In this document: positions 42,251 through 63,201 of the stretch, piece by piece | How positions within the stretch are numbered: position 1 is the first letter of the stretch | Layout of the letters: each line of letters opens with the position of its first letter | From: Rothia nasimurium | GTDB lineage: Bacteria; Actinomycetota; Actinomycetes; Actinomycetales; Micrococcaceae | Assembly: GCF_928381705.1 (NCBI RefSeq) | Contig: NZ_CAKMSR010000007.1 | Location: forward strand, 62,001 to 126,000 | Length of the DNA stretch: 64,000 nucleotides | Reading direction: 5' to 3' | Notes under the pieces: generated by a model | Database searches by the model: none | The model's input: only the letters and a program-made list of their open reading frames with translations | Told to the model about the DNA's origin: nothing | Translations under genes and position numbers: made by a program

Positions 42251-42946
42251 GTGACTTCCCTAGCCCCTGAACCCCTGCCGTCCGCGTCCCTTGATGAGAT
42301 AGCCCGCAAGCGCCCCGCCGAGTTGCGGGCGTCCGAGTGGGCTGTGTATGCCCTGCGAACCGCCATGGATGCGGGTGTTCTCACCCCCGGCACCCAGCTC
42401 ACGGAAGAAGCACTGGCCGCCACCCTGGATGTCTCCCGCAACACCCTGCGCCAGGCCTTCACCGAGCTTGAGGGGCAGAACCTGGTGCAGCGCATCCCCC
42501 ACCGCGGGGTTTTTGTGGCCCGGCCCGACAGCACGCAAGTGCGAGAGCTTTTTATTGAGCGGTGGGCGGTGCAGGCGGCCGCCCTTGACCTGGCTCCTGC
42601 TGGGGAGAATAAGGACGCCCGGGCCGCCCTCGCGCGTGCAAGAGCGGCCCGGGATGCGGGGTCGGTGGACGGTATGGCCAACGCCAACCAGGATTTTCAC
42701 CGGGCCCTGGTTGCGGCTGCCGGGTCAGAGCGGCTAAGCCGCACCATGTCACGGTTGCTTGCCGAGATGCGCCTGCTCTTTTTTGAGTACACCCAGGACG
42801 GGGGCTTCCACGCTCCCTACGTTGAAATGAACGCCCACCTGCTCGATCTGGTCGAGCACGGTGAGCGGACCGCCGCCCACGAGGCCTTACGCAGTTACCT
42901 GGTGGCCTCGCGGGATAAGTTTTTGCAGCGGCAGGCGGATTCCTAG
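42251..42946 (+). CDS. GntR-family (FadR/FCD type) regulator
   Basis: 231 residues from a GTG. GntR winged helix at ~27-92 (LTEEALAATLDVSRNTLRQAFTEL as two parts) and an FCD helical ligand domain at ~100-225, with the FHRALVAAAGSERL metal-site region. Its stop overlaps the convergent transporter's stop inside the tetranucleotide CTAG. It probably binds the two ATTGTTGAACAAT palindromes and controls pxpBC-carboxylase and the transporter. Ligand possibly 5-oxoproline or glutamate; inferred. Confidence 0.85.
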   Translation: MTSLAPEPLPSASLDEIARKRPAELRASEWAVYALRTAMDAGVLTPGTQLTEEALAATLDVSRNTLRQAFTELEGQNLVQRIPHRGVFVARPDSTQVRELFIERWAVQAAALDLAPAGENKDARAALARARAARDAGSVDGMANANQDFHRALVAAAGSERLSRTMSRLLAEMRLLFFEYTQDGGFHAPYVEMNAHLLDLVEHGERTAAHEALRSYLVASRDKFLQRQADS

Positions 42947-44178
42947 CCAGCCCAGAGGGCGGCGATACCGCTGAGGGACTTGTAGCCCAGGTAGATGGTC
43001 AGCAGCCAGGAGATCCAGCCAATTACGATGAGCCAGACGGGGTAGCGGTAGCCGCCCAGCAGGGTTTTGGCGCGGAAGGTCGCTACGAAGAGAAGCACCG
43101 CAAAACCTACCGGCAGGATGAGGCCGTTGACGGCACCAGCCACGATCAGCAGGGTGGCGGGGGCCTTGCCCGCAACGATGAAGACGACAGTTGAGACGAC
43201 GATGAAGCCGATGGTCAGGGCATTCTTGACGGTTACGGAAGTCTTAGCGGTGGTTAGGAAGGACACCGAGGTAAAGGCCGCACCGATGACGGACGAGATT
43301 GCTGCGCCCCAGAGAATCAGACCGAAGAGGCGGGTTCCAATTTCACCGGCGGCGATGCCGAAGGCCTGACCGGCGATGGACTTGTCGGTATCGAGGGCTA
43401 CGCCGGTAGCGACCACGCCCAGAATGGCGAGGAAAAGTAGGAAGCGCATGATGCCGGTGATGACGATGCCGGTGACGGATGAGCGGGAGATGTCCTTGAC
43501 GTACTCGGGGCCGTGGATACCGGCGTCCAGCATGCGGTGGGCACCGGCGTAGGTGATGTAACCGCCCACGGTGCCGCCGACCAGGGTGGTGATGACGGTG
43601 AAGTTCACTTCACTGGGAATAACGGTGTTCTTGAGGGCCTCACCGACGGGTGGGTTGGAGACAATCGCGACGTAGAGGGTTGCCAGAATCATGACGGCGC
43701 CGAGGACGACGACGATGCGGTCCAGGGCGACGCCGGCTCGCTTGGAAAGGAAGACACCGATAGCGAGGGCGGCGGTGATGATGCCGCCGGTGGTGGCGTC
43801 CATGCCGAGCATGGAGTTGAGGCCCAGGCCGCCACCGGCGACGTTACCGACGTTGAAGACGAAGCCGCCGAGGGCTACCAGGATAGCGAGGAAGATGCCG
43901 AGGCCAGGAAGGACGGAGTTGGCAAGTTCCTGGGCTTTCATGCCGGAGACGCCAATAACGCGCCAGACATTGAGCTGCACGGCGATGTCGATGAGGATCG
44001 ATACCAGAATCGCGAAGGCGAAGGCTGCGCCCATCTGGTAGGTGAACTGGCCGGTCTGGGTGATGAAGCCGGGGCCGATGGCGCTGGTGGCCATGAGGAA
44101 GAGGGAGCCGAGCAGAGCTGTACGGCGCCCCTTGGCGGCCTGGTCTTTGGGGGTGATCAGGGCGTTTGCGTCTGCCAT
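42943..44178 (-). CDS. NRAMP-fold transporter of YcsG type
   Basis: 411 residues, 11-12 helices, LeuT-fold NRAMP family. The ATG at 44178 is chosen for AAGGAGAG; the frame continues to 44316 through the operator. The TM1 metal-binding DPGN of true NRAMPs is replaced by IGPGFITQTG, and the TM6 MPH segment by YAGAHRML, so divalent metal transport is unlikely. B. subtilis ycsG sits beside ycsF (pxpA) and kipIA, the same neighbourhood. Transport of 5-oxoproline or a related amide is a reasonable inference. Confidence 0.85.
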   Translation of the reverse strand: MADANALITPKDQAAKGRRTALLGSLFLMATSAIGPGFITQTGQFTYQMGAAFAFAILVSILIDIAVQLNVWRVIGVSGMKAQELANSVLPGLGIFLAILVALGGFVFNVGNVAGGGLGLNSMLGMDATTGGIITAALAIGVFLSKRAGVALDRIVVVLGAVMILATLYVAIVSNPPVGEALKNTVIPSEVNFTVITTLVGGTVGGYITYAGAHRMLDAGIHGPEYVKDISRSSVTGIVITGIMRFLLFLAILGVVATGVALDTDKSIAGQAFGIAAGEIGTRLFGLILWGAAISSVIGAAFTSVSFLTTAKTSVTVKNALTIGFIVVSTVVFIVAGKAPATLLIVAGAVNGLILPVGFAVLLFVATFRAKTLLGGYRYPVWLIVIGWISWLLTIYLGYKSLSGIAALWAG

Positions 44179-44250
44179 GTCTCTCCTTGGGGTGCGGGCA
44201 CGCGACGGGGGCGTCATAATGCGTGCTAGGTCATAGACATAGATTACACA

Positions 44251-44263
44251 ATTGTTGAACAAT
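44251..44263. promoter_or_regulatory. Palindromic operator ATTGTTGAACAAT, copy 2
   Basis: Identical to 37564-37576, with matching flanking bases (AATTGTTGAACAATC). It lies 73 bp upstream of the NRAMP-type start. Confidence 0.7.
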
Positions 44264-44295
44264 CGCAAGAGGAGAGCTCGCGCACGTGCCATCGT

Positions 44296-44340
44296 AAAAG
44301 TGCAACTGCCCGTCACTTAGTGAAGGGCAGTTGCACTTTT
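44296..44340. terminator. Terminator downstream of the wall-anchored protein gene
   Basis: 16-bp perfect arms 44296-44311 and 44325-44340 (AAAAGTGCAACTGCCC). On the minus strand it follows the gene ending at 44364. The 18-mer at 44296-44313 recurs at 53584-53601. Confidence 0.78.
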
Positions 44341-44363: not shown

Positions 44364-47141
44364 TTAGCGCTGACGGCGGCGCAGCGTCAGGACGCCCGCT
44401 GTCAGGGCTGCGAGTCCAGCTAGGCCAAGACCGACCACCTGGGCACCGGTGGAGGCAAGCACCCCGCCACTTGCAGCAGGCTGGCTACCTGCAGGCTGGG
44501 CGGCAGGCTGGAAGCCCTGCTGGGTTCCGGCACCACCGTTCGGGGTATCCACCTGGACGCCGGGGGTCGCGGACTGGCTTGCCCCTGCAGTAGCGCCGGG
44601 GGTGGGAGCAGGCTGGCTGCTGGCGCTAGGAGCGGGGGTCGACTGGGGCGCAAAGACGGGCAGGCTGCTGGGGTCGGCACTCGGCACAGGGCTGGGCTGA
44701 CTGGTCGGCTCGACGCTGGGTTCAACAGTCGGTTCGACACTAGGTTCTACAGTCGGCTCAGGGCTGGGGGCATTCTCAGCTACAGCCAGGCAGTCGTCAA
44801 TCGCCGCGCCGCCTACAGCAAAGACCGCACGCTGGGTCTCGCTGCGGGCCGTGGTTCCATTGGGCAGCGGGGCGCTGTAGTAGACTTCGAAGCCGTAGAC
44901 GCCGGGAGTGGTAAAGACCCAGTTAGCGTGGGCGTGGGTGGCGAAGTCAATGTCGATGGTGGTGTCCTTGGCTGTGCCACCGGCGTGCAGGGTGACAGCA
45001 CCGGCGAAGTCCTGCTCGTAGACGCCGTAACTAGCGCCTTCGGGTACTTCAACCGGCACAAGGTGCAAGGTGGCAGGCCCGGCAAGCTGGGCGTAGTCAA
45101 CGTCCTGGGTGTTCCAGCCGGGCCAGAGAATACCGGCCTGCTGGGTCTGCGGCAGGCCGTAGAACTCGCTACCGGCATCGCCCAGGAAGTCCAGCTCGGG
45201 GGCCATCATCTGCTCCTGGCGGGCAAAGCGGGTGTTATCGCCCAGACCCAGCACCACGTCATTGAGAGATCGCTCAGCAGCTTCACGGGTGACAGCCCCG
45301 GTCTCGTCCTTCAGCGCCAGCTTCAGCGCCCCGCCTGCCAGGGAGGCCTTGATATCGACGTGCCCGTCGGTGAGCAGGTAGCGACCTTCAAGCTCAGGAG
45401 CCTTGCACTGGCGGGCATCGGGCAGGGGCTGGGCGGGGGTGGAAGGGCTGGTGGTAGGCTCAGGCTGAACCGGGGCGGACGGACTCGGGGCCGGAGTGCT
45501 GGGTGAAGGAGCAGGTGAGCTGGGCTCAGGGCTGGGCGCAGGCTGGCTAGGAGCTACCACGGGGTCGGTGAGTGTAAGGGAGCCGCTGGAGCTATATTCC
45601 TGGCCGGGCACATAGTCGCTGGTGACAGTGTGCCGGTCGGTGCGGGCGTCCATGTCGGGGTGGGGGGTGATATTGAAGATGGCATGGTAGCCCTTGAGCC
45701 AGCTGGCTGCGCTCAGGTAGCAGCTAGCGACCCCGTTGTCGATGTGGGCATAGCAGTTGGCGGCGCCCGAGGCGTCCTCGGCCCGGCGGAACATACCGCC
45801 TGAAACGTAGCCGCGCACGGTGGGGTCGGCAAATTTAATCTGTACCAGGTTGTACCCCTCATGGTCTGAGGGTTTGATGGTGACGGTGTAGTCGCCGCTG
45901 GTCAGGGCGTGGTGGCCGGTGGGGAGCACGGTGTTGCCGGGGTCAGCGGTGGGGGCGGGCCAGCGTCCTTCACCCGCATCTGAGCGCACGGACGCGCTCC
46001 CCCCGGGTGCGTAGGTCAGGGCGGGGGTGACCCACTTGGCGGCCTTGGCACCGGAAGCCGCCGCGGCGCCATCCGGAATAAAGACGCCCTGAATCTGAGA
46101 ATCTAGGGAACCCAGCATTTCTGACCAGGTGGCCTTACCGTTTTCAACACGCACGTCGGTGAGGAAGTAGCCCTGGTTGTAGAGAGTCAGGGTGCCCGAG
46201 ACGTCGGTGCGCCCGGCATCGAAGGTGATGTCGGTGAGGGAGTCGTCGCCGTCCTTTTCAGGGTTCGCCTTGGGAGCCAGGGTCAGACTGTAGTTTTCCC
46301 TGGTGAGGGCGGTAGTCAGGGCCCTGTTGTAGGCATCAATCAGGGGTGCCTCAGTTGCAACACCAGCGCCGTCTGCCGGGCGATTTCCGCCCACCTGCCA
46401 GACGGCGGTGGTGGGCTTAGATTCGATGGTTTGACCGTCAAGACCGCGGGCGACGGTGCGGTAGGTGACCTCGTAGCGGCCAGGGCGAGAGAAGGTGGTG
46501 AAGTTGTGGGTGTGGGCGCCGGGGGTGAGCACGGCCGACTGGAAATCGGGGTCGGTGGAGCTGAGCATGCGGCGCACGTCGTTGGGGAAGTAGTTGGAGC
46601 GGTAGGTGAACATCTCCATGACGCCGGGGCCGTTGACGTTCAACAGGTCGAGGGTAAAGGTGCCGTCGCGGAAGTTTTCAACGGGGATGTTGGTGTCTGC
46701 CCCGAAGCCAATCCAGGCCGGGTTGTGGTTGCCGTAGGGCAGGGAGGGGGCCATGTAGAGCTTGTCGCCGGGCCTGCCCAGGAAGCTAGCATTGGGCGAA
46801 TCGGGCACGGTGAAGATGTACTGGTTTTTGGCTTCAGCGCGGGCGGAGTAACCCTTGCCCAGCCAGAGAACCGACTGGTCAAAGGGCACGAGGGCGTCAT
46901 TTTTGTCGCCGTGGGGCATCTTGCCGTAGAGGCTAAAGCCGTTGTTTTCCCAGACGGTTTGCGGGGCGTCGATATGGGCCTGGGTGCCCACGATTTTGCC
47001 GTCGTCGGGCCCGGCAGTGGCGGGCAGGGCTGAGCCGACCAGGGTGGCGATGGCCAGGGCCGAGAGGGTTAGAGCGCGGTAAGGACGCCTGCGGGCAACT
47101 GGGCGCAGTGAGGGGGAGGACGCGGGTGCTTGGGTCTGCAT
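44364..47141 (-). CDS. Sortase-anchored surface protein of the anchored-repeat ABC system
   Basis: 925 residues from the ATG at 47141 (AGAAAGA upstream). Signal peptide ~1-43; a first repeat-like region with HTHNFTTFSRPGRYEV; a central unassigned domain around SWLKGYHAIFNITPH; a Ser/Pro linker; a canonical wall repeat (DFLGDAGSEFYGLPQTQQ, WPGWNTQ, HAHANWVFTTPGVYGF); a Pro/Ser/Val/Glu repeat spacer; then LASTG, a hydrophobic helix and RRRQR for class E-type sortase anchoring. It diverges from the transporter operon across a Fur-like box. Likely captures ligand at the surface. Confidence 0.88.
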   Translation of the reverse strand: MQTQAPASSPSLRPVARRRPYRALTLSALAIATLVGSALPATAGPDDGKIVGTQAHIDAPQTVWENNGFSLYGKMPHGDKNDALVPFDQSVLWLGKGYSARAEAKNQYIFTVPDSPNASFLGRPGDKLYMAPSLPYGNHNPAWIGFGADTNIPVENFRDGTFTLDLLNVNGPGVMEMFTYRSNYFPNDVRRMLSSTDPDFQSAVLTPGAHTHNFTTFSRPGRYEVTYRTVARGLDGQTIESKPTTAVWQVGGNRPADGAGVATEAPLIDAYNRALTTALTRENYSLTLAPKANPEKDGDDSLTDITFDAGRTDVSGTLTLYNQGYFLTDVRVENGKATWSEMLGSLDSQIQGVFIPDGAAAASGAKAAKWVTPALTYAPGGSASVRSDAGEGRWPAPTADPGNTVLPTGHHALTSGDYTVTIKPSDHEGYNLVQIKFADPTVRGYVSGGMFRRAEDASGAANCYAHIDNGVASCYLSAASWLKGYHAIFNITPHPDMDARTDRHTVTSDYVPGQEYSSSGSLTLTDPVVAPSQPAPSPEPSSPAPSPSTPAPSPSAPVQPEPTTSPSTPAQPLPDARQCKAPELEGRYLLTDGHVDIKASLAGGALKLALKDETGAVTREAAERSLNDVVLGLGDNTRFARQEQMMAPELDFLGDAGSEFYGLPQTQQAGILWPGWNTQDVDYAQLAGPATLHLVPVEVPEGASYGVYEQDFAGAVTLHAGGTAKDTTIDIDFATHAHANWVFTTPGVYGFEVYYSAPLPNGTTARSETQRAVFAVGGAAIDDCLAVAENAPSPEPTVEPSVEPTVEPSVEPTSQPSPVPSADPSSLPVFAPQSTPAPSASSQPAPTPGATAGASQSATPGVQVDTPNGGAGTQQGFQPAAQPAGSQPAASGGVLASTGAQVVGLGLAGLAALTAGVLTLRRRQR

Positions 47142-47197
47142 TGCGGTCTTTCTAGTGTGTGCGGGGTGGGTGGCGAGAAGCTCACCCATAAGTTGAG

Positions 47198-47210
47198 AAT
47201 GATTATCATT
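47198..47210. promoter_or_regulatory. Fur/Zur-like box AATGATTATCATT
   Basis: A perfect 6-1-6 inverted repeat inside GAGAATGATTATCATTAAA, between the divergent starts at 47141 and 47266. It resembles Fur-family (Zur, Fur) sites. Given the metal-type binding protein downstream, zinc- or iron-dependent repression of both directions is likely. Confidence 0.7.
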
Positions 47211-47265
47211 AAAGATATTCTATGTGTCGAGAAAAGCCAAACAACACACAGCTAGAAAGCACACC

Positions 47266-49362
47266 ATGTACCAGTTCCCCCGCGCCCTCTCGGTCGCAGC
47301 CCTTTCCGTGGCCCTGCTTGCAGGCCCCCTAGCAGCCTCACCCGCAGTAGCCGAACAGGGCGGCCCCGCCCCTGCCGCCAGCCAGGCAGCCCCCACCGCG
47401 AGCCAAGAAGCCGCGGCGCGCACCGTTCTCGCCGTCGAGCACACCGACGCCCTAGCTATGGCTCTAACCAACGGGCAGCTAGAACTCTTCACCTACGCCG
47501 ACCTGCCCGGCGCACCCCGCACCCGCCTTGACCCCGCCCAGACAGTCTTCAACCTGCAAGACCGTGCTGACACCAGGGTCAGCGTGCCCGCAGGGTTCGA
47601 TTTTTTGGGTGCCGAGGGGTCAACCATCTGGCTGGCACCCCAGACCCAGGTAGCCGGGGTGCTCTGGCCCGGCTGGAATACCGAGGGGATCCACCCCGGT
47701 GAGTTAGCCGGCGACAAACTGACCCTAGAACTCGTAAAAACCAAGGCCCCCGAAGGCGGTGCGGTCGAGGTCTTCCAGTCCTCCCCCTTCGGCACCGAAC
47801 GGGTCTTTAGCTCCCGCGAGAAACTGCCCGCCCTGCAACAGCCGGTTGGTTCCCACGTACACGCCAACTGGGCTTTCACCGCCACCGGAACCTACGAGCT
47901 CACCTTCCGCGCCAGCGCCACCCGGGCGGACGGCACCCCCGTCAGCACCGAGCAGACCTACACCTTTGTGGTAGGGCAGCTCCCCGCCGAACTGGGCGGC
48001 CCAACCGAGGCAACCCAGCCGACCGCCACCCCCTCCCCCAGCACGGCACCCGAGACACCTTCATCTACTAGCCCCAAACCCAGCGCACCCGCACCGGTAG
48101 AGACAACCGAAGCACCGGCGTCCGCACCGGCAGCACCAAGCTACGCTCCCTTCAACCCGGCACCGGCCCCCGGCGGTAGCCAGGAAAGCGCCAGCACCCA
48201 GACCAGCCAGCAGCATGCAGCCCCGGCGGCGGGAAGCAGCAACCAGGTTCACCGAGCACCGACCGCCCAGAATCCAGCTCAGCAGCACCCCGCCCAGCAG
48301 CACTCAGCGGCAGGCGGTAGCGGGGGCGCCGCGCCCCAGCAGTGCCTGGTCACCGAGGAACTGGTCAAACCTGCCGAGCAGGCTCAGCAGGGTGAGGCAG
48401 GTACGGCTAACCGGGCGTCCGCGCGCACCCTGGACAAGCCCGCCTTCACCATTCAAAAAGCCGTTAATACAAGCACCAGCAAGGCCACCAGCGGCCACTT
48501 TGATTTTGGTGCGGTCCTGAGCGGCGGTAACCTCTCAGCCCAGGTCAAGGACGACCGCACCTCCCCTGCCACCTGGAAGCAGCCAGGTGCCCTCACTTTT
48601 GTGCTGGGTGACGGCGCAAAGACCACCATGCCCGGCGGCATGGACCATATCGCCCCGGCGGGGGCCGAGGTCTACCTGATCGGGGCAACCCAGCAGGCCA
48701 CCGTGCCCTGGGTCGGCTGGAACACACAGAACCCCGAACTGGTTGCCCAGGCCTCCGGCCCGGCCACCCTCACCCTGACCGATTTGCAGGGTCCGGGTAG
48801 GCTGTCGGTTTTCCTCTCGGGCAACTTTGGCTCAGCTGGAACCACCGTCTTCAACGGGGTAGGTGACTCCTTCTCGGTACCGCTCAATACTCACCAGCAC
48901 GCCAACTGGGTCTTCACTGCCCCCGGTGCTTACTCTGCAACCCTCACCTGGACGGTGCCGCTCAAGAGCGGCGGGCAGGCAACAGCTAGCGGAACCTTGA
49001 ATTTTGAGGTGGGCGATATGGCCCAGTCCCAACAGCAGACCCAGCAGCAGGACGCCGGTAGCGGCTCTAGCTCCAAGGCCCCCGCAGGTGGTGGGCAGGG
49101 CTCTGTCGATAGCGCCACCGGCCTGGTCACGCGACCCGACGGCTCCCAGGTGCGCATTGTGGGCAAGACCGCCGACGGGCGCGACTGCACCCTGAGCGAG
49201 GACGAACTCGCCAAGGCCCAGCAGGCCTCAGCCCGAGGCGAGCTGGCCTACACCGGCACCTCATCGACTGGCACCCTCGCCGCAGCCGGTGGCCTGGCCC
49301 TGCTGGCCGGGGCGGGCGTCCTGCTCTTTGTTCGTCGTCGCTCTGCCCGCCGTGCAGCGTAA
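47266..49362 (+). CDS. Sortase-anchored wall protein with two transporter-associated repeats
   Basis: 698 residues from the ATG at 47266 (AGAAAG upstream). Signal peptide ~1-30. Repeat 1 (~45-235): GFDFLGAEGSTIWLAPQTQ, WPGWNT and HVHANWAFTATGTYEL. A long Pro/Ser/Thr/Gln-rich linker (~240-380). Repeat 2 (~400-580): WVGWNTQNPE and HQHANWVFTAPGAYSA. The C-terminus has LAYTG, a hydrophobic helix and RRRSARR, so it is cell-wall linked. First gene of a six-gene run with the binding protein, ATPase and permease. Confidence 0.9.
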   Translation: MYQFPRALSVAALSVALLAGPLAASPAVAEQGGPAPAASQAAPTASQEAAARTVLAVEHTDALAMALTNGQLELFTYADLPGAPRTRLDPAQTVFNLQDRADTRVSVPAGFDFLGAEGSTIWLAPQTQVAGVLWPGWNTEGIHPGELAGDKLTLELVKTKAPEGGAVEVFQSSPFGTERVFSSREKLPALQQPVGSHVHANWAFTATGTYELTFRASATRADGTPVSTEQTYTFVVGQLPAELGGPTEATQPTATPSPSTAPETPSSTSPKPSAPAPVETTEAPASAPAAPSYAPFNPAPAPGGSQESASTQTSQQHAAPAAGSSNQVHRAPTAQNPAQQHPAQQHSAAGGSGGAAPQQCLVTEELVKPAEQAQQGEAGTANRASARTLDKPAFTIQKAVNTSTSKATSGHFDFGAVLSGGNLSAQVKDDRTSPATWKQPGALTFVLGDGAKTTMPGGMDHIAPAGAEVYLIGATQQATVPWVGWNTQNPELVAQASGPATLTLTDLQGPGRLSVFLSGNFGSAGTTVFNGVGDSFSVPLNTHQHANWVFTAPGAYSATLTWTVPLKSGGQATASGTLNFEVGDMAQSQQQTQQQDAGSGSSSKAPAGGGQGSVDSATGLVTRPDGSQVRIVGKTADGRDCTLSEDELAKAQQASARGELAYTGTSSTGTLAAAGGLALLAGAGVLLFVRRRSARRAA

Positions 49363-50926
49363 CCGTTTTCGCCGCTTCGCCCCTCTCCTACTGACCGCTC
49401 TGCTGGCCCTCACCGGCTGTGGCGGTGCAGGGGAGCGGGGCCAGGAGGGCCTGCAGGTGGTAGCATCCACCCCCATTGTGGCCGACCTGGCCTCGGCCGT
49501 TGCCGGGGACAGGGCCCAGGTGACCTCGCTGGTTCCCGCCGGGGCTGACCCCCACACCTACGAGCCCTCCCTGCGCGACGTTCGCGACGTAGCCTACGCC
49601 GATGTAGCCTTCACCAACGGCCTGCTGCTAGAACAGCAGAAGCTGGTGCGCACGGTCGACGCCAACCTGCCTGAGGGGGCGCTCTCGGTGGCGGTTGCCG
49701 AAGAGATTGAGAGCTACGGAGGCAGCCTGATTCCGATTGTTGAGGACGCCTCCCTCGACTCCATCTGGCTGGGCCTGCGCACCTCTGGCGCCCCGCGCGA
49801 TGCCGACCTGGGTCGTGACGCCTCGGTCACATTCAGGGCCACTGCTGCCAGCGGGCCGGGCCAGCTCGCCGCCTTTATTACCGGAACCTTCGGGTCGGTT
49901 GAGAAGGTAGCGGACTCCGGCGCGGACGGCGGCACACAGGCGGGAAACCTGGGGGAAACCTCCCTACCCCTTCAGGCCCATACCCATCTTTCATGGGCAT
50001 ATACCCAGCCGGGCATATACTCCCTGGAGCTTGAAGCCCAGGCCCGCGGCGCTGACGGCGCGGCCCTGGACGGCCTCACCGACGTCCGCCCAACCACCGT
50101 GCACTTTGCCGTCGGCGTCTCCCCCGACGCCCAGGCACGCGCCCTACAGGAGGCCACCGGCCAGCCCGTCACCGTCCTCGATGCCGGGCATGCCGACCTC
50201 ACCGCCCAGCTCGACACCGGCCGCCTGGTGATTCGCACCGATTCCGACGGGCAGGTCACCGAGCACGACCCCGCCAGCACCGTCATTGCGGTACCCTCCC
50301 GCACCCTGCAGGAACTCCCTACCGGGCCCCAGTACCGCTTCCTCGGCAAGCCCGGCGACCAGGTCTACCTGCTGGCCCAGGCGGTGCTGGGCAAGCACGT
50401 CCACGGCGAAATCGACCCCCACATCTGGCACTCGGTACCCAACGCCATGGCCGCAGCCCAGCTCATACGCGACACCCTCACCGCCGCCGACCCCGCCGGG
50501 GCCGCCACCTACCGGGCCAACACCGAAGCCCTGCTCACCGAACTGGCAGACACCGACCGGGAACTCCACCGCATCTACGGCCAGCTCCCCGACGCTGCTA
50601 AGAACCTGGTCACCACCCACGACGGTTACCGCTACCTCGCCTCAACCTACGGGCTCACCGTCGCCGGCTACGTCTCCCCCGGCGCGGGCGTAGAACCCAG
50701 CATCCAGCAGCGCGAGCGCCTGCGCCGCACCATCGACGACCTAGCCGTACCCGCCCTCTACACCGAGCGCGGGTCAATGAACAGGACGCCGGTGCTCCAA
50801 CAGGTAGGCAAGGAGGCCGGGGTGCGGGTCTGCGAACTCTACTCCGACTCCCTCGATGCAGATGCCCCCAGGTACTCCCAAATGATGCTGGCCAACGCGC
50901 AGGCCATTACCGACTGTTCCACCTAA
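49352..50926 (+). CDS. Anchored-repeat ABC transporter substrate-binding lipoprotein (TroA/ZnuA-like)
   Basis: 524 residues from a GTG that overlaps the previous gene by 11 bp; lipobox LTGC (C23). The TroA-type metal site is complete: H68 (DPHTYEPS), H357 (DPHIWHS), H423 (THDGYRY) and E472 (YTERGS). About 200 residues are inserted between the first and second ligands and contain the wall-repeat domain, but with its second half (IWLGLR, GPG, HTHLSWAYTQPGIY) before its first half (GHADL, FLGKPGDQVYLL). It probably receives zinc, manganese or iron from the wall proteins. Confidence 0.92.
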   Translation: MQRNRFRRFAPLLLTALLALTGCGGAGERGQEGLQVVASTPIVADLASAVAGDRAQVTSLVPAGADPHTYEPSLRDVRDVAYADVAFTNGLLLEQQKLVRTVDANLPEGALSVAVAEEIESYGGSLIPIVEDASLDSIWLGLRTSGAPRDADLGRDASVTFRATAASGPGQLAAFITGTFGSVEKVADSGADGGTQAGNLGETSLPLQAHTHLSWAYTQPGIYSLELEAQARGADGAALDGLTDVRPTTVHFAVGVSPDAQARALQEATGQPVTVLDAGHADLTAQLDTGRLVIRTDSDGQVTEHDPASTVIAVPSRTLQELPTGPQYRFLGKPGDQVYLLAQAVLGKHVHGEIDPHIWHSVPNAMAAAQLIRDTLTAADPAGAATYRANTEALLTELADTDRELHRIYGQLPDAAKNLVTTHDGYRYLASTYGLTVAGYVSPGAGVEPSIQQRERLRRTIDDLAVPALYTERGSMNRTPVLQQVGKEAGVRVCELYSDSLDADAPRYSQMMLANAQAITDCST

Positions 50927-50939
50927 CCCAAGGATTTCC

Positions 50940-51980
50940 ATGAAAATCTCTCCCCGATTCACTACCGCCCTGGCCCTGGCAGCCCTGCTGGTGCCGGCGT
51001 CCGCGCTGACCCCCGCAGCCTACGCGGCCGAAGAGAACAAGAGCGCCGAAGAGCGCGCCCTGGAACAGACCCTCTCGCCCGACGAGCCGGTCGTCAGCGG
51101 CCAGCACGAGATTGCTGCCGGGCACGTTGATATGGGCCCGGCCTTCGTTGAGGGCTCCTGGGAGCTCATGTTCCGCGACGATTCAACTGCCGAGCCGGTC
51201 TGGCGCGACCCTGCCGACGTGGTGCTGCGCGGCGATGACACCGCCATGATGGCCGTACCCGATGACCCCCGCTACTCCTTTGTGCAGGCCTCCCCCGGGG
51301 AGCAGGTCTACGTGATTCCGCAGACCGAGCTGGCCGGGGTGGTCTGGCCCGGCTGGAACACCCAGAACCCCCAGGTGGTGGAGCGCCTGGGTCGCGGCGT
51401 CACCTTCACCCTTGAGGCGGTAGAGGGCCCCGGCGGGTTCTCCATGTACCTGGAAAACGGCACCTTCGGGGCGCCGGAAGTGCTGTGGACCTCCGACAGC
51501 ACCGACCCCCAGGACATCTTCGTTGAACCCAACGTGCACACCCACGCCAACTGGGTCTTCACCGCCCCCGGCGCCTACTACCTGACCGTGCGCGCCCACG
51601 CTGAACTGGCCGACGGCACCGTCGTCAGCGACACCGCCCGCCTGCTCTTCGCCGTCGGCTCGACCGTGAGTAACGAGCAGGTCTTTGCCGGGGCGGACGC
51701 CCTCGGTGCGGTTGACGAGGGCAGCTCAGGGGGCGAGAGCCAGGGGGAAGACCAGGACGCGAGCGCCCAGGCGACCGAGGCAACCTCCACCGCTGCGGCA
51801 GCTGGCGATTCAAGCACCAGCAGTGAAGCAGAGAACAGCGACTCAACCCTACCGATTGGCCTCATGGCCGGTGGTGGCGCGCTACTTCTGGCCCTCACCG
51901 TCGGTGGTGTTCTCCTAGCCCGTCGCTCCGCAGCCGCTAAGGCTGAAGCCTTCGAGCAGTCCACCGGGGGCCGCGCATGA
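50940..51980 (+). CDS. Membrane-anchored repeat protein of the ABC system
   Basis: 346 residues with AAGGA before the ATG. Signal peptide ~1-30, one complete wall repeat (~58-245: GHVDM, WPGWNTQNPQ, GPGGFSMYLENGTFG, HTHANWVFTAPGAYYL), an acidic Ser/Glu/Ala linker, one C-terminal transmembrane helix (~300-325) and a basic start to the tail. There is no LxxTG motif, so it stays in the membrane, between the wall proteins and the importer. Overlaps the ATPase start by 4 bp. Confidence 0.88.
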   Translation: MKISPRFTTALALAALLVPASALTPAAYAAEENKSAEERALEQTLSPDEPVVSGQHEIAAGHVDMGPAFVEGSWELMFRDDSTAEPVWRDPADVVLRGDDTAMMAVPDDPRYSFVQASPGEQVYVIPQTELAGVVWPGWNTQNPQVVERLGRGVTFTLEAVEGPGGFSMYLENGTFGAPEVLWTSDSTDPQDIFVEPNVHTHANWVFTAPGAYYLTVRAHAELADGTVVSDTARLLFAVGSTVSNEQVFAGADALGAVDEGSSGGESQGEDQDASAQATEATSTAAAAGDSSTSSEAENSDSTLPIGLMAGGGALLLALTVGGVLLARRSAAAKAEAFEQSTGGRA

Positions 51981-55077: not shown

Positions 55078-55899
55078 ATGACTTTGCCGAATGCCGCCCA
55101 GGCCCACCACGATGAGCATCTTGATGCTGACCATACGTCGGTTTCGCTTGCTGTTTCTACCGTGATTTTGGCTCTGCGGCGCAAGGAGGGCGAGTCTCAT
55201 CATTCGCTGTGGCTGCCTCTGGTGCGCCGTCTGCGTGAACCCTATAAGGGTCAGTGGGCCCTGCCGGGTGGCCCCTTGCAGCCCGATATGTCTCTTGAAG
55301 AAGCGGCTGGTTACACCCTTCAGCGGGCGACCGGCCTGGTGCCGGGTTATCTTGAGCAGCTCTATGCTTTTGGCGACGTGCACCGCACTCCGGACTACAA
55401 GATTATGCGCGAGGGCGGTTCCTTGCCGGTTCCTGCTGAGGAAGATCGGCATGAGCGTGTGGTGTCGGTGATTTACTGGGCGTCTATCCCTCAGACCGAG
55501 GTCAACCGCACCCGGGTTCACGAGAATATCCGTTGGTTCCCCATCGACGAGCTGCCCATCCTGGCTTTCGACCATAACGAGATTGTTGAGTACGCCCTCT
55601 ACCGCCTGCAGAATAAGGTGGAGTACTCCCGTATTGCCCATTCTTTCTTGGGCGAGGAGTTTACTCTGGCTCAGCTGCGTGAGGTTTATGAGGCGATTTT
55701 GGGTCGTGCTCTTGACCCTGCAAATTTCCGCCGCCAGATTGCGGCCTCTAAGTCTATTATTGATACGGGTAAGCGTGTTGAGGGTACCCGCCACCGCCCG
55801 CCGCGTCTTTACCGTTACAATCACTCGCGTGCCTTCGCGGATCAGGGCCCTCTGGGCATGTACCGTGAGGCCGCCTATAACGCCGAACAGGGGAAGTAA
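55078..55899 (+). CDS. nrtR: NrtR-type transcriptional regulator (Nudix-like sensor plus winged helix)
   Basis: 273 residues from the ATG at 55078 (GGGGAG upstream). Residues ~20-165 are Nudix-like, and ~175-270 match the NrtR winged helix with FTLAQLREVYEAILGRALD and FRRQI. The Nudix box is degraded: the REUxEE core is replaced by TLQRAT after GGPLQPDMSLEEA, so hydrolysis is not expected. NrtR proteins repress NAD biosynthesis or salvage genes and sense ADP-ribose; no NAD gene is adjacent, so targets lie outside the window. Confidence 0.88.
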   Translation: MTLPNAAQAHHDEHLDADHTSVSLAVSTVILALRRKEGESHHSLWLPLVRRLREPYKGQWALPGGPLQPDMSLEEAAGYTLQRATGLVPGYLEQLYAFGDVHRTPDYKIMREGGSLPVPAEEDRHERVVSVIYWASIPQTEVNRTRVHENIRWFPIDELPILAFDHNEIVEYALYRLQNKVEYSRIAHSFLGEEFTLAQLREVYEAILGRALDPANFRRQIAASKSIIDTGKRVEGTRHRPPRLYRYNHSRAFADQGPLGMYREAAYNAEQGK

Positions 55900-55903
55900 A
55901 TTT

Positions 55904-56758
55904 ATGAAGCGCCTAGTGCCCTTAGCAGTAGTCACCATTCTTGCTCTCAGCGCATGTGGCACCTCTGTAGAGACAGCCCCTGAAGCTGCACCCACTATCA
56001 CTTATACCGATGGGATGACAGCTACGGTAGTGACAGTTGAATCAGCTAATACATTTACCGCGAGTATCGATGGAGTGGAAAAAGAAGTTCGTCTTCTTAA
56101 TGTCGCAGCCCCTACTAGCAGTGGGATTGCTCTCTCAAGTACCTGTTTAGTGGATGAGTCCAAAGCTCTGCTTGCCGAGAAACTGCCTGAGGGTAGCCAG
56201 GTAACTCTAAATTTTGATGAGTCTCAGCGCGGGGCAACCGGCTACGTTGAGGCCGCCGTGTATGCAGGAGATGCCTTTATCAATCGTGATATGGCGCGGG
56301 CTGGCATGGTTGCTACCACCTTTACTAGCAATGCAGATGAGTTCTACGGAGAGATTTCTCAGGCTCAGCAGGATGCCGCCAATGAGGGTCTTGGTCTTTA
56401 TTCCAAGGACATCGAATGTACCATTCCTGCTCAAATCCAGGCACAAAAGATAGCTGTAGAGGACGCTAAAAGCTGGGAAGTAGACACATCAGCCGAAGCT
56501 CCACTAGAGCAAAAGCAACGTGAAAACGAACGCCAGGCTATCTACCGTGACGCCTCTGCGGTGTACAAGGACTTAGAAGAACAGACTAAAGCTCCCGCTC
56601 AGTGGGTAGGGTCAATCGTGACCCTAGACGCCGTTACAGCACAGCTAAATGAACTCCGCTCACTTCTGGGCGATGACTTCTACCCTGAGAACGGCACCAG
56701 CGTGAACCAGCAGAAGAAGGCTGAGGCTGAGGCCACCCCGGTGCGCCCGGGTTCCTAA
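55904..56758 (+). CDS. SNase-fold lipoprotein, probably non-catalytic (copy 1)
   Basis: 284 residues from the ATG at 55904 (GGGGAAG upstream, 4 bp after the nrtR stop). Lipobox LSAC (C18). Residues ~32-165 follow the staphylococcal nuclease fold: an ATVVTVESANTFTA first strand, VRLLNVAAPTSSG, and a late DAFINRDMARAGMV. The Asp of DGDT, the active-site Glu after P and the YGR Arg are absent, so nuclease activity is unlikely. The C-terminal ~110 residues are a charged helical region. Convergent with a second such gene. Confidence 0.75.
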   Translation: MKRLVPLAVVTILALSACGTSVETAPEAAPTITYTDGMTATVVTVESANTFTASIDGVEKEVRLLNVAAPTSSGIALSSTCLVDESKALLAEKLPEGSQVTLNFDESQRGATGYVEAAVYAGDAFINRDMARAGMVATTFTSNADEFYGEISQAQQDAANEGLGLYSKDIECTIPAQIQAQKIAVEDAKSWEVDTSAEAPLEQKQRENERQAIYRDASAVYKDLEEQTKAPAQWVGSIVTLDAVTAQLNELRSLLGDDFYPENGTSVNQQKKAEAEATPVRPGS

Positions 56759-56769
56759 AAGGGCTGAGC

Positions 56770-57915
56770 TCAGCGGACGCCGCCCCTCGTTCCCCTGCCT
56801 CTGGGCAGGCGGGTGAGGGGCGGCGTCCTTTTAATCCACTGTGGTAGATGGGCTAGGGGGCTGAGGTAAGAGCTCTCTGTGGGGTTTGCGGGGTCTTCAG
56901 GGTGGGGTGTATCGCCCGGGTGGGTGGTATCTGGGTTAACGGAGGTAGGTTCGGGGGCAGGGGGCTGTTCTGGGGCTGGAACTTCTTCCGGAGCCGGAGC
57001 TTGATCTGAGGCAGGAGGTGCGTCAGGAGCCGGCAACTGGGCGACCTCACCTGTGGGGTGGTTCTTGCCGTCCTTCTCTGCTTTTTCGTTTTCTAGTCTT
57101 TCTCGTTCAGCTTCTTCGGCTAGGTTGTAGACGATGCGTTTGCTGTCGCGAGCCCGCAGGAAGGTGTCACGCAGGGTTTTGACGGATTGGGTTTGGGCAA
57201 TGGCTGAGAGCAGGGGCAGGTCGCTGGCAGTTTCGTACTCTTCGAGGCGGCGGGTGAGAGAATCTGCGGCTTCTAGGGGCTCTTTGAGACCTATTCCTTG
57301 GGCGTTATTTACACTGGTGAGAGTAGAATTTAACTGGGACGGGAGTGCGCACTCAACGCTTCGACTGTAGATACCTGCCTGTTGCTGATCAGCCTCGTCT
57401 TGGGCTGCGCTGATAGTTTCATAGAGGGTGGAGCTACCCTCGGTAACGGCTACGCCGAAGCCTGCTCTGGCCATCTCAGCGTTAAGTAGTCGCCCATCGG
57501 GCAGGGTGACTCCCGCCGTAACCTTAACGGTGGGGCTGGCGGAGGGCTCTGGCTGGCTGGTTTCCCCCGCCCCTAGGGCCTCATCGTAAGTAAGGGTGAC
57601 GGGTGAGCCGACAGGTAGAAGCTTGGTCAGGTACTCGGTGGCCTCTGTGGACAGGCAGCGCATATCCTCATTATCGTGCTTGGCCTGCGGGGTAACCAGG
57701 TTCAGCAGGTTAACGGTGATAGTAGTGCCGTCCCTTTCCAGGCTGAGGGTGTCGGCATCGATGACGTGTACAACACAAGCTACGGAGGTGCTGTCTGTAG
57801 CGCTGGGGGTGGCGGTGCTGGCAGGTTCAGCAGCATTGCCAAAGAGGCCGCAAGCGGTGAGAGTGAACATGCCGACCGTGAGAGTGGCGGGTGCAAAAAT
57901 GCGAGCAGGGCGCAT
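56770..57915 (-). CDS. SNase-fold lipoprotein with Pro-rich tail, probably non-catalytic (copy 2)
   Basis: 381 residues. Lipobox LTAC (C22). SNase-like region ~45-195: VVHVIDADTLSLERDG, VNLLNLVTPQ, LLNAEMARAGFGVAV; the strand Arg is Asn and the Glu is Gln, so it is probably not a nuclease. A helical segment (~215-300) with RERLENEKAEKDG follows, then a Pro/Ala/Glu tail. The frame continues through the shared terminator, which encodes the last ~20 residues. Pairs with the convergent homologue at 55904. Confidence 0.75.
   Translation of the reverse strand: MRPARIFAPATLTVGMFTLTACGLFGNAAEPASTATPSATDSTSVACVVHVIDADTLSLERDGTTITVNLLNLVTPQAKHDNEDMRCLSTEATEYLTKLLPVGSPVTLTYDEALGAGETSQPEPSASPTVKVTAGVTLPDGRLLNAEMARAGFGVAVTEGSSTLYETISAAQDEADQQQAGIYSRSVECALPSQLNSTLTSVNNAQGIGLKEPLEAADSLTRRLEEYETASDLPLLSAIAQTQSVKTLRDTFLRARDSKRIVYNLAEEAERERLENEKAEKDGKNHPTGEVAQLPAPDAPPASDQAPAPEEVPAPEQPPAPEPTSVNPDTTHPGDTPHPEDPANPTESSYLSPLAHLPQWIKRTPPLTRLPRGRGTRGGVR
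56775..56832. terminator. Bidirectional terminator between the two SNase-fold genes
   Basis: 14-bp perfect outer arms 56775-56788 and 56815-56828 (GGACGCCGCCCCTC) with an inner CCTGCC/GGCAGG stem, then four Ts. It lies inside the 3' end of the minus-strand gene. Confidence 0.82.
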
Positions 57916-60215: not shown

Positions 60216-61610
60216 GTGAGTAGGCGGTTTATCGTTACCCATCGACCCCAAAGAGCGTTTATGTCATCTGAAAATACCGTCCTGTCGCGCGGCTCCTATA
60301 AGGAATCCCAGCGCATTTCAGAGATCCTATCCAAGGAATCCACCGGCGGCATCATCCTGCTGGTTGCTACCGTCCTCGCCCTCATTTTTGCTAACTCAGC
60401 CGCCGCCGAGCACTACTTCGGCCTGCGCGATACCTACCTGGGCGCTGATTTCTGGGGCCTACACCTTAAACTTTCTATCGGTCACTGGGCTGCCGACGGT
60501 CTGCTGGCGGTTTTCTTCTTCCTGGTCGGCCTTGAACTCAAAAAGGAATTTGTCGAGGGCGACTTGCGCAACCCCGGCAAGGCCCTCGTTCCTATCGTGG
60601 CAGCAGCCGGTGGTGTTGCCCTGCCCGCCATCATCTACGTACTGGTTAACCTCAACAGCAGTTCTGAGGCGCTGGGGGGCTGGGCTATTCCCGCAGCAAC
60701 CGACATCGCTTTCGCGGTGGCCGTCCTCGCTGTTATCGGCTCCCACCTACCGTCAGCCCTGCGCACCTTCCTGCTGACCCTGGCTGTGGTCGATGACCTG
60801 ATCGCCATCACCATCATCGCCCTCTTCTACACCTCAGACCTGAAGATCGGTTTCCTTGCCCTCTCGATCATTCCCATTGCCCTCTACGCCCTGGTAGCGC
60901 GCAAGGGCGAGAAGCTCTTCCACCTCTCCCCCGCCGCGTCCTGGTTCATCCTGCTGCCCATCGGTTTTGTGGTCTGGGTACTCTTCCTCAATTCCGGTAT
61001 TCACGCCACCATCGCGGGCGTCATTCTGGCCTTCATGATTCCCGTGCGCAAGAACAAGCGCACCGAAGCAGCGGACGCCCACCACGGCCTGGCCGAGGTC
61101 ATGGAGCACCGCGTGCGCCCCTTCTCCGCAGGTTTCTGCGTCCCCGTCTTCGCCTTCTTCTCAGCGGGCGTCGCTATCGGCGGCTTCCAGGGCTTCATTG
61201 ACGCGGTCACCGAGCCTATTGCTTACGGCATCATTCTGGCCCTGATTTTCGGCAAGATGATTGGTATTACTGCTTCCACCTGGCTGGTCACCCGCCTGCG
61301 CCGCGCCAACCTGGACCCCGATATCGCCTGGATTGACGTGATTGGTGTGGCCACCCTGGCCGGTATCGGCTTCACCGTCTCCCTGCTGATTGCCGAGCTC
61401 TCCTTCGGTCTGGGCTCCGACTACAACGACGCCGCTAAGGTCGCGATTCTGACCGCCTCGGTCACCGCCGCCCTGCTCGGTGCCATCATCCTGTCGATCC
61501 GCAACAAGCACTACAAGCAGGTTGCGCTCAAGGAGACTGTGGATGAAAACCAGGACGGCATCCCCGACGTCTTCACCGACAACACGGACGCACCCCGCCC
61601 CGGCGCCTAA
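60216..61610 (+). CDS. nhaA: Na+/H+ antiporter NhaA (copy 1)
   Basis: 464 residues from a GTG with CAGGAGA five bases upstream; an ATG at 60261 is possible. Twelve-helix NhaA fold: LEKKEFVEGDL-type loop, the GWAIPAATDIAFA stretch and LAVVDDLIAI with the two ion-binding aspartates (DD), and a late GIGFTVSLLIAEL. It exports Na+ for protons at alkaline pH. The C-terminal DGIPDVFTDNTDAPRPGA tail is shared with copy 2. Confidence 0.95.
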   Translation: MSRRFIVTHRPQRAFMSSENTVLSRGSYKESQRISEILSKESTGGIILLVATVLALIFANSAAAEHYFGLRDTYLGADFWGLHLKLSIGHWAADGLLAVFFFLVGLELKKEFVEGDLRNPGKALVPIVAAAGGVALPAIIYVLVNLNSSSEALGGWAIPAATDIAFAVAVLAVIGSHLPSALRTFLLTLAVVDDLIAITIIALFYTSDLKIGFLALSIIPIALYALVARKGEKLFHLSPAASWFILLPIGFVVWVLFLNSGIHATIAGVILAFMIPVRKNKRTEAADAHHGLAEVMEHRVRPFSAGFCVPVFAFFSAGVAIGGFQGFIDAVTEPIAYGIILALIFGKMIGITASTWLVTRLRRANLDPDIAWIDVIGVATLAGIGFTVSLLIAELSFGLGSDYNDAAKVAILTASVTAALLGAIILSIRNKHYKQVALKETVDENQDGIPDVFTDNTDAPRPGA

Positions 61611-61797: not shown

Positions 61798-63201
61798 ATG
61801 GAACCTGAAGCAAGCGAAGATACACCTGACCTAAGGAGAGGCATGACTGAAGCGCCTCACAAGGACCCGCTCTTTTCCCGCGGATCGTACGCCGAGACCA
61901 GCCGCGTCTCAGAGATTATGCGCAAGGAATCGGTGGGTGGTTTTATTCTGCTCGCCGCCACCGTGCTCGCCGTTATTCTGGCTAACTCCCAGGCAGCACA
62001 TTTCTACGAGAGTGTGCGCGATACCGAGCTGGGCTTGAGCATTCCAGGCTTCAGCCACCTGATGATGAACGTGCACCTGTGGGCCGCTGACGGCCTGCTC
62101 ACGGTCTTCTTCTTCCTCACCGGCCTAGAACTCAAAAAAGAGTTCGTGGTGGGCGACCTGCGCGACCCGGGTAAAGCCGTCGTCCCCATCGCGGCGGCCT
62201 TCGGCGGCGCCATGACGCCGGCTATCATCTATTTCGCCATCAACCACGGCAATGAGACCGCTGTGCACGGCTGGGCTATTCCCGCTGCCACCGATATCGC
62301 TTTCGCGGTGGCCGTCCTGGCCGGTGCGGGCACCTTCCTACCCGCGGCCCTGCGCACCTTCCTACTGACCCTGGCTGTGGTCGATGACCTGATTGCCATC
62401 GTCATTATCGCCCTCTTCTACACCAGCAACTTCCACGCCTGGTACCTGATTATCTCTATCATTCCCATCGGGCTATATTTCTGGCTGACCCACAAGCATG
62501 AGAAGTTCTTCCACGAGAAAAAGTGGGCGGCCTGGGTCATCTTGCTACCCCTGGGGCTCATCACCTGGGCTCTCTTCCTAGAGTCAGGCATTCACGCCAC
62601 CATTGCAGGCGTCATTCTGGGCTTCTGCGTCCCCGTCCGCATGACCGCCCAGGCCAAGCAAGCCGATGCTCACGCCTCCCTGGCCGAGACCCTGGAGCAC
62701 CGCCTGCGTCCGCTCTCCACCGGCATCTGCGTACCCCTCTTCGCCTTCTTCTCCGCCGGTGTAGCAGTCGGTGGCTGGGACGGCCTGCGCACCGCCCTTA
62801 CCGACTCCGTTGCTATCGGCATCATGGTTGGCCTGGTACTGGGCAAGACCGTCGGCATTACCGGTACCACCTGGCTCATCACCCGATTCCGCGGCGTGAA
62901 CCTAGACTCCGATATCAAGTGGATTGATGTGATCGGCCTAGCCGTCACCGGCGGTATCGGCTTCACCGTTTCTATGCTGGTCGCCGAGCTCTCCTTCGAG
63001 TCAGGCTCCCTGCACACCGAGGACGCCAAGATCGGCATTATGATCGGCTCGGTTATCGCAGCGGTCTTAGGCGCAACGATTCTGTCGATTCGCAACAAGC
63101 ACTACAAGCAGATTGCACTCAAGGAAAGCATCGACGAGAACGAGGACGGCATCCCCGACGTCTTCACCGACAACACGGACGCGCCCCGCCCCGGCGCCTA
63201 G
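61798..63201 (+). CDS. nhaA: Na+/H+ antiporter NhaA (copy 2)
   Basis: 467 residues from an ATG with AAAGGAG upstream; an ATG at 61843, also with AAGGAGAG, would remove 15 residues. Same fold and motifs as copy 1 (GWAIPAATDIAFA, LAVVDDLIAI), moderately diverged in the N-terminal half and loops, while the last ~20 residues are nearly identical. A tandem duplication in which the two pumps may differ in pH range or affinity; inference. Confidence 0.95.
   Translation: MEPEASEDTPDLRRGMTEAPHKDPLFSRGSYAETSRVSEIMRKESVGGFILLAATVLAVILANSQAAHFYESVRDTELGLSIPGFSHLMMNVHLWAADGLLTVFFFLTGLELKKEFVVGDLRDPGKAVVPIAAAFGGAMTPAIIYFAINHGNETAVHGWAIPAATDIAFAVAVLAGAGTFLPAALRTFLLTLAVVDDLIAIVIIALFYTSNFHAWYLIISIIPIGLYFWLTHKHEKFFHEKKWAAWVILLPLGLITWALFLESGIHATIAGVILGFCVPVRMTAQAKQADAHASLAETLEHRLRPLSTGICVPLFAFFSAGVAVGGWDGLRTALTDSVAIGIMVGLVLGKTVGITGTTWLITRFRGVNLDSDIKWIDVIGLAVTGGIGFTVSMLVAELSFESGSLHTEDAKIGIMIGSVIAAVLGATILSIRNKHYKQIALKESIDENEDGIPDVFTDNTDAPRPGA

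Follow-up and report, generated by a model that had tools for sequence, protein, structure and literature searches.

A circularly permuted wall-repeat domain in the TroA-type binding protein of an anchored-repeat transporter of Rothia nasimurium

In a 64,000-nucleotide stretch of Rothia nasimurium DNA (contig NZ_CAKMSR010000007.1, positions 62,001 to 126,000; called the window below), the locus of an anchored-repeat ATP-binding cassette (ABC) transporter encodes a TroA/ZnuA-type substrate-binding lipoprotein (49352..50926, + strand). In this protein of predicted TroA fold, a single circularly permuted copy of the repeat domain of the nearby wall and membrane proteins takes the place of the loop ahead of the second metal ligand. 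All family members that we examined have the permutation, and their inserts group in one clade. In Gram-positive bacteria, zinc, which is scarce, has to cross a thick wall before it reaches the importer in the membrane; to our knowledge, a zinc relay by wall proteins has so far been a suggestion without a mechanism. Here one and the same domain is carried by wall proteins, by a membrane protein and by the binding protein of the importer, and in the latter the conserved side chains of the rotated copy should adjoin the metal site. Taken as a whole, we consider it probable that the rotated insert is a zinc-handling replacement for a His-rich loop and relays wall zinc to the importer. The rotated insert would give the exact residues for the hand-off from wall to importer and a clear experiment, and it is a clean natural case of circular permutation together with domain insertion into a functional loop.

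The anchored-repeat system and its insert-bearing TIGR03772 family are already catalogued, and the TIGR family notes reportedly mention the insert and propose that substrate is relayed. In the open-licence literature that we searched, we found no mention of the rotation or its single origin, nor of the loop replacement and the composite residue set. A search on permuted substrate-binding proteins gave a glucose-binding lipoprotein of divergent topology, which is a different protein according to the part of its description consulted (PMC4990184).

Order of the two halves in the insert

We built a profile of the repeat (201 positions) from 319 wall and membrane repeats in the open reading frames (ORFs) of the window, two further loci and 80 named loci, the latter being 80 of 387 relatives from a large scan. 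The first pass gave 357 repeat matches, 325 of them near full length and 319 unique, and only these 319 entered the profile. It turned out that the binding protein contains an insert of about 210 residues which is homologous to the repeat and carries its second half first. Residues 136-261 (49757..50134, +; WLGLR..GPG..FG..HTHLSW..PGIY..FAVG) match profile positions 87-199 with 74.3 bits, and residues 268-344 (50153..50383, +; GHADL..FLGKPGDQVYLLAQA) match positions 5-83 with 52.5 bits. The curated model NF038134 (184 positions), which was built by others, gives the same order, with positions 74-183 first (69.3 bits) and 1-73 afterwards (42.3 bits); the latter piece by itself is under the cut-off of 55, and the whole binding protein with 108.4 bits is above it. 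Both halves are homologous to the choice-of-anchor M domain of NF038134, but the insert is not a collinear 1-184 domain: it is a single copy in the order 74-183 and 1-73, embedded in a TroA domain. All five repeats of the neighbouring proteins match NF038134 from position 2 or 3 to 184 in one piece. The circularly permuted order that an earlier note had read from this DNA is therefore recovered by both models. It cannot be seen with the domain model TIGR03769, because that model spans only 41 residues of the second half.

The same swap, for which the earlier note had pointed to the homologues, is found in all 83 binding proteins by the repeat-profile search and in 24 of 24 additional loci, with one insert per binding protein throughout. 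These include 105 distinct sequences, as there is one identical pair in the 83 and L141 (of the 24) equals L038 over the last 480 residues. Among the 83, the first match starts at profile positions 39-108 and the last ends at 73-83; two profile matches were obtained in 82 proteins and three in L040. In the latter (Rothia koreensis, ORF from 8483, +), the second half is matched in two pieces which overlap on the profile (87-141 and 127-196), so this insert has presumably diverged or gained residues.

The natural termini of the repeat, the VG end and the GHxD start, are joined within the insert by a linker with a median of 17 residues (range 12-36; 67 of the 83 binding proteins, in which both motifs were found). 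The new ends of the rotated repeat, which are fused to the TroA domain, are found in the loop that separates the strand VYxLPQT from WxGW, from profile position 83 (PQT) to 87 (LLWPGW). The idea that the domain was inserted through its own termini is therefore not upheld.

Among 402 repeat matches of 250 wall-protein ORFs, which include 369 near full length, 28 with the second half only and 1 with the first half only, no swapped pair within 60 residues was found. Besides, 16 TroA-type proteins without insert gave no repeat-profile match better than E = 0.036; these controls were drawn from 27 loci, and the remaining 11 gave no ORF with the DPHxW pattern. After in-silico un-rotation, the top score for a single domain was higher in each of the 83 inserts (median 134.8 bits, from 77.2 before), at least 170 of the 201 profile positions were covered in 82 of 83 un-rotated inserts, and shuffled inserts had a median of -1.9 bits. 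A free-cut scan is fairer, since the cut point used for this un-rotation came from the profile matches. With the insert circularised and cut at every position, the optimum was flat, and for all 5 proteins scanned the best cut lay in the linker from the VG end to the GHxD start. Both halves are present once, in swapped order, and jointly cover the repeat domain, so that a circular permutation of the wall repeat is strongly supported on the sequence level.

Two AlphaFold2 (AF2) models were made from native sequences with separate alignments, one of 116 repeats (115 of 160 clustered repeats plus the repeat of the window) and one of 78 binding proteins, which omits L086, L103, L033, L031 and L073 as presumed near-duplicates. 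The repeat of the protein at 50940..51980 reached a predicted local distance difference test score (pLDDT) of 92.6 and a predicted template modelling score (pTM) of 0.87, and the binding protein 88.5 and 0.80, respectively. The rotated mapping via the profile paired 189 residues with 84% secondary-structure agreement and 29% sequence identity, compared with a mean of 39% (maximum 49%) for 112 slid placements; the best collinear placement without gaps reached 49%.

In the trees, the inserts are one clade among the wall repeats (49 vs 149 sequences, support 0.999). Larger trees with 60 inserts and 179 wall repeats gave this clade a support of 0.994 for the full length, 0.839 for the first half and 0.996 for the second half; the two half-trees list different nearest wall repeats, as ordered by mean patristic distance, which carries no support value. 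Loci named Conexibacter and Solirubrobacter also carry the insert-bearing binding protein, and since we take both to be outside the class of the window, the insert presumably reaches past that class. The simplest history would be a single event in which the rotated domain replaced the loop.

Unrotated or doubled intermediates were not seen in 394 genomes of the class and 396 of the phylum; as 80 of the 387 relatives from the large scan were covered, rare ones could escape. In the class genomes, 27 of 27 TIGR03772 matches at E <= 1e-60, a threshold that excludes shorter ones, span practically the whole model, from position 1 or 2 to 484-486. In the phylum genomes, 3 matches are above the cut-off, and the next among the matches listed start at model position 294 or later, in the TroA part. 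The early start of the first match (before profile position 75 in 6 of the 83 and in 3 of the 24, namely L118, L137 and L139) had prompted the idea that the segment before the insert (IIPLVEDVSLDTxWLGL) is a leftover duplicate of the boundary strand. The idea stays tentative, as other TroA proteins have a comparable strand there (by eye), presumably including PsaA.

The order of the halves alone would also permit two separate insertions, by which the halves were captured independently and do not form one domain. We regard this as hardly credible, since the two halves cover complementary parts of the profile with almost no overlap and a nearly constant break, the un-rotated insert matches the full length, each half forms one clade, the strand order in the model fits one rotated domain, and the conserved residue set described below is composed from both halves.

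Position of the insert and its conserved residues

The binding-protein ORF starts with GTG at 49352, stops at 50926 and encodes 524 residues with a lipobox LTGC (by eye). It matches TIGR03772 over model positions 1-485 of 486 (573.6 bits; cut-off 350.45) and PF01297 (ZnuA) with 217.8 bits; the AztC model NF040870 gave 184.7 bits, which is under its cut-off of 350 and does not place the protein among the AztC proteins. Without the insert, the predicted model has a TroA fold and is matched to YfeA (5uxs) with Z 33.6 and a root-mean-square deviation (rmsd) of 1.8 Å over 268 aligned residues; for AztC (5kzj) and the binding-protein model the values are Z 33.5 and 1.7 Å over 265 residues. The TroA N-terminal part ahead of the insert (residues 33-135; 49448..49756, +), found by phmmer to solved metal-binding proteins over residues 33-95 and in the 78-protein alignment, contains the predicted ligand His68. 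The C-terminal part (50384..50920, +), found by phmmer, alignment and fold match, contains His357, His423 and Asp499. None of the four varies in the alignment of 78 binding proteins; His357 was placed via the alignment with AztC His138, and the other three we take to be ligands as in TroA/ZnuA.

Other metal-binding proteins have a variable loop, often rich in His, directly ahead of the ligand in DPH (here His357), and the insert occupies its place. At the junction, the segment HVHGEIDPH (50396..50422, +) leads from the insert to His357, with HVHG and DPH unchanged across all 78 aligned proteins; the inserts of TIGR03772 end with ..QAVLGKHVHGEIDPH, of which the final His aligns with AztC His138. 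Of the 16 insert-free controls, 9 have a His-rich loop directly ahead of DPHxW and 7 a short plain one (by eye). According to the parts consulted of two papers, a flexible loop rich in His, Asp and Glu is a sign of zinc specificity in cluster A-I proteins (PMC7463823), and loop 117-133 of AztC, with three His before the ligand His138, is required for direct zinc transfer from AztD (PMC7463823, PMC6689063). No such flexible loop is found in the Rothia protein, which has a folded insert in its place with only HVHG left. AztC and the Rothia protein have the TroA fold and the loop position ahead of the second His ligand in common, but the loop of AztC has 17 residues and the Rothia insert is a folded domain of about 210; besides, AztD, the metallochaperone of AztC, is a beta-propeller and not a relative of the wall repeat. 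Because the insert replaces the variable loop just before His357, it is reasonable to infer that it could couple ligand capture to the TroA metal site.

AdcA, which presumably consists of a ZnuA domain plus a ZinT domain, and the ZnuA/ZinT pair are likewise metal-binding proteins with an added zinc-handling domain or partner. In these systems ZinT is at the C-terminus or a separate protein, whereas the added domain of Rothia sits inside the TroA domain and is rotated. ZnuA and ZinT are treated as a pair in the part consulted of PMC6689063.

Wall repeats and inserts have a set of conserved residues in common, namely H17 and D19 of the first half, W90 and G92 of the loop at the cut, and H153 and H155 of the second half, for which the window equivalents are His280, Asp282, Trp139, Gly141, His210 and His212. 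The pairs His210-x-His212 (49979..49987, +) and His280-x-Asp282 (50189..50197, +) are invariant in 78 of 78 binding proteins, and H153 and H155 are each kept in 90% of the wall repeats. In 359 ungapped wall repeats (of 374), all four of H17, D19, H153 and H155 are present in 322, neither pair is intact in 33 and one pair is intact in 4; among the 33, 17 lack all four, 13 keep D19 only and 3 keep other residues. W or F at position 90 together with G92 is found in 318 of the 322 full-set repeats, compared with 1 of the 33. The His-x-Asp and His-x-His set and the W-x-G loop thus seem to be mostly kept or lost together. The inserts contain all four residues in 106 of 107 cases, and the single insert without the full set, L040, is probably misaligned, as both His are invariant in the 78-protein alignment that includes L040. 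Mean-field direct coupling analysis (DCA) of 374 wall repeats (effective number 284) placed 17-153, 17-155, 90-153, 19-153, 90-155 and 19-90 within the top 18 couplings. In 107 inserts (effective number 71), the top 20 inter-half couplings of the wall repeats are raised, with a mean percentile of 0.75 (resampling p 0.0004) and 0.69 for the intra-half reference.

The 37 of 359 wall repeats that lack at least one residue of the His/Asp set come from 28 loci (e.g. L041 and L107), and the 33 with neither pair intact are nearly always without W-x-G; such repeats may be structural spacers.

With the rotation accepted as real, the insert might still be only a docking module which binds the wall and membrane repeats and so holds the binding protein close to them, with a structural His/Asp set and no part in a relay. 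The presence of wall-repeat ORFs in 83 of 83 loci, surface partners with the same domain and the single insert per binding protein would all suit such a module; we nevertheless think it rather unlikely, as none of the 78 aligned proteins departs from HVHG or from the four metal-type side chains, and the insert is located where AztC has its zinc-transfer loop.

For the relay of zinc by the insert, which we prefer, the following mechanism is proposed. The repeat domain would bind zinc via His280/Asp282 and His210/His212, which come from opposite halves, near the Trp139-Leu-Gly141 loop. Through the rotation, the chain would begin and end at this loop and no longer at the natural termini, and because the ends would then be beside the His/Asp set, the site of the insert would face the TroA cleft and abut the TroA site (His68, His357, His423 and Asp499), with His349 and His351 in between. 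The flexible His-rich loop would have a built-in folded substitute in the insert: the homologous wall and membrane repeats would capture zinc, which would pass to the insert and then to the TroA cleft, and the ATPase/permease pair would import it under Zur control. This full picture of an in-built zinc chaperone, in which rotation sets a site of three His and one Asp to face the TroA site and completes a zinc chain from wall to membrane to importer, is more tentative than the relay as such, and we would put its chances somewhat short of even.

Regulation and the identity of the metal

The divergent promoter of the operon contains a 15-base inverted repeat, TGAGAATGATTATCA (47194..47208), which we take to be a Zur-type box; it is the only exact match to TGANAATNATTNTCA, the consensus as we assume it, in the 2.6 Mb genome. 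Such a box at the promoter is what a member of a Zur regulon would have under this assumed consensus. Sites that match it at 13 or more of the 15 bases exist in 53 of the 68 related loci with a length of 14 kb or more, compared with 9 of 136 resampled controls; this count refers to sites anywhere in the locus and not only in the promoter, and to a consensus written after the box of the window had been seen. In the parts consulted of the following papers, the troA-dip0445 cluster of C. diphtheriae is regulated by zinc and Zur (PMC6711530), genes of the anchored-repeat system are among the ten most induced ones listed for Gardnerella in genital-secretion medium (PMC11979175), and TIGR03773 and choice-of-anchor M genes are among those changed in a mixed biofilm of C. 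acnes, where zinc is discussed (PMC10045295).

The system could also import manganese and not zinc, as the closest proteins of known structure to the binding protein (phmmer and fold search) include MntA, MntC and YfeA, and the operon is next to a gene for a multi-pass transporter which is NRAMP-like by eye (42943-44316, -). We judge this improbable in view of the sole exact match of the Zur-type box, its frequency in the related loci and the zinc/Zur control of the C. diphtheriae cluster. Taken by itself, the NRAMP-like gene hints at the handling of manganese plus zinc.

Several observations weigh against the zinc-handling reading of the insert. The neighbouring NRAMP-like gene leaves manganese possible, and only the exact match of the box is telling, because with one mismatch allowed there are 6 Zur-type places vs 4 for the reversed control pattern. 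The seven controls with a plain loop show that the replaced position is not always His-rich. The joint loss of the conserved residues amounts to a few events (3 Fitch changes per pair), so the p value of 4.6e-42 obtained from sequence counts is overstated, and inter-half pairs are not enriched in the top 60 wall couplings (22 of 60 vs 50% of all pairs). Besides, the fold searches yielded no clear known relative of the repeat: only FimH/FmlH lectin domains, PAD middle domains, laccases and nitrite reductases were matched, with Z of at most 6.3, which is not above background.

Genes around the binding protein

The binding protein apparently forms one operon with a wall-anchored repeat protein, a membrane-anchored repeat protein, an ATPase and a permease. 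The wall-anchored protein (47224..49362, +) has two normal-order repeats and an LPXTG-type anchor (TIGR03773 357.1 bits, cut-off 190.3; LPXTG_anchor 22.4 bits), and the membrane-anchored protein (50940..51980, +; anchor by eye) has one normal-order repeat (NF038134 196.8 bits). They are followed by the ATP-binding subunit (TIGR03771; 51977..52756, +; 285.3 bits, cut-off 268.8) and the permease subunit (TIGR03770; 52753..53604, +; 364.1 bits, cut-off 296.8). With the ATPase, permease and anchored-repeat genes beside the binding protein, and the models TIGR03772, TIGR03771, TIGR03770 and TIGR03773 all above cut-off, the locus is that of the known anchored-repeat ABC transporter. Divergent from the operon is another wall protein (44364..47189, -) with two repeats in normal order, both matching NF038134 positions 2 or 3 to 184 (284.1 bits in total).

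Among the named loci covered, the closest relatives of the binding protein are those of L031-L033, with 94-96% identity. A second TroA-type match in the same genome (G000:C1:352879-353403) covers only the TroA part of the model. Further downstream in the window, two convergent genes (55583-56758, +, and 56770-57915, -) encode secreted proteins with similar nuclease-like domains (by eye), and tandem genes for NhaA-like antiporters (60216-61610 and 61798-63201, +; by eye) have identical C-terminal tails, DGIPDVFTDNTDAPRPGA.

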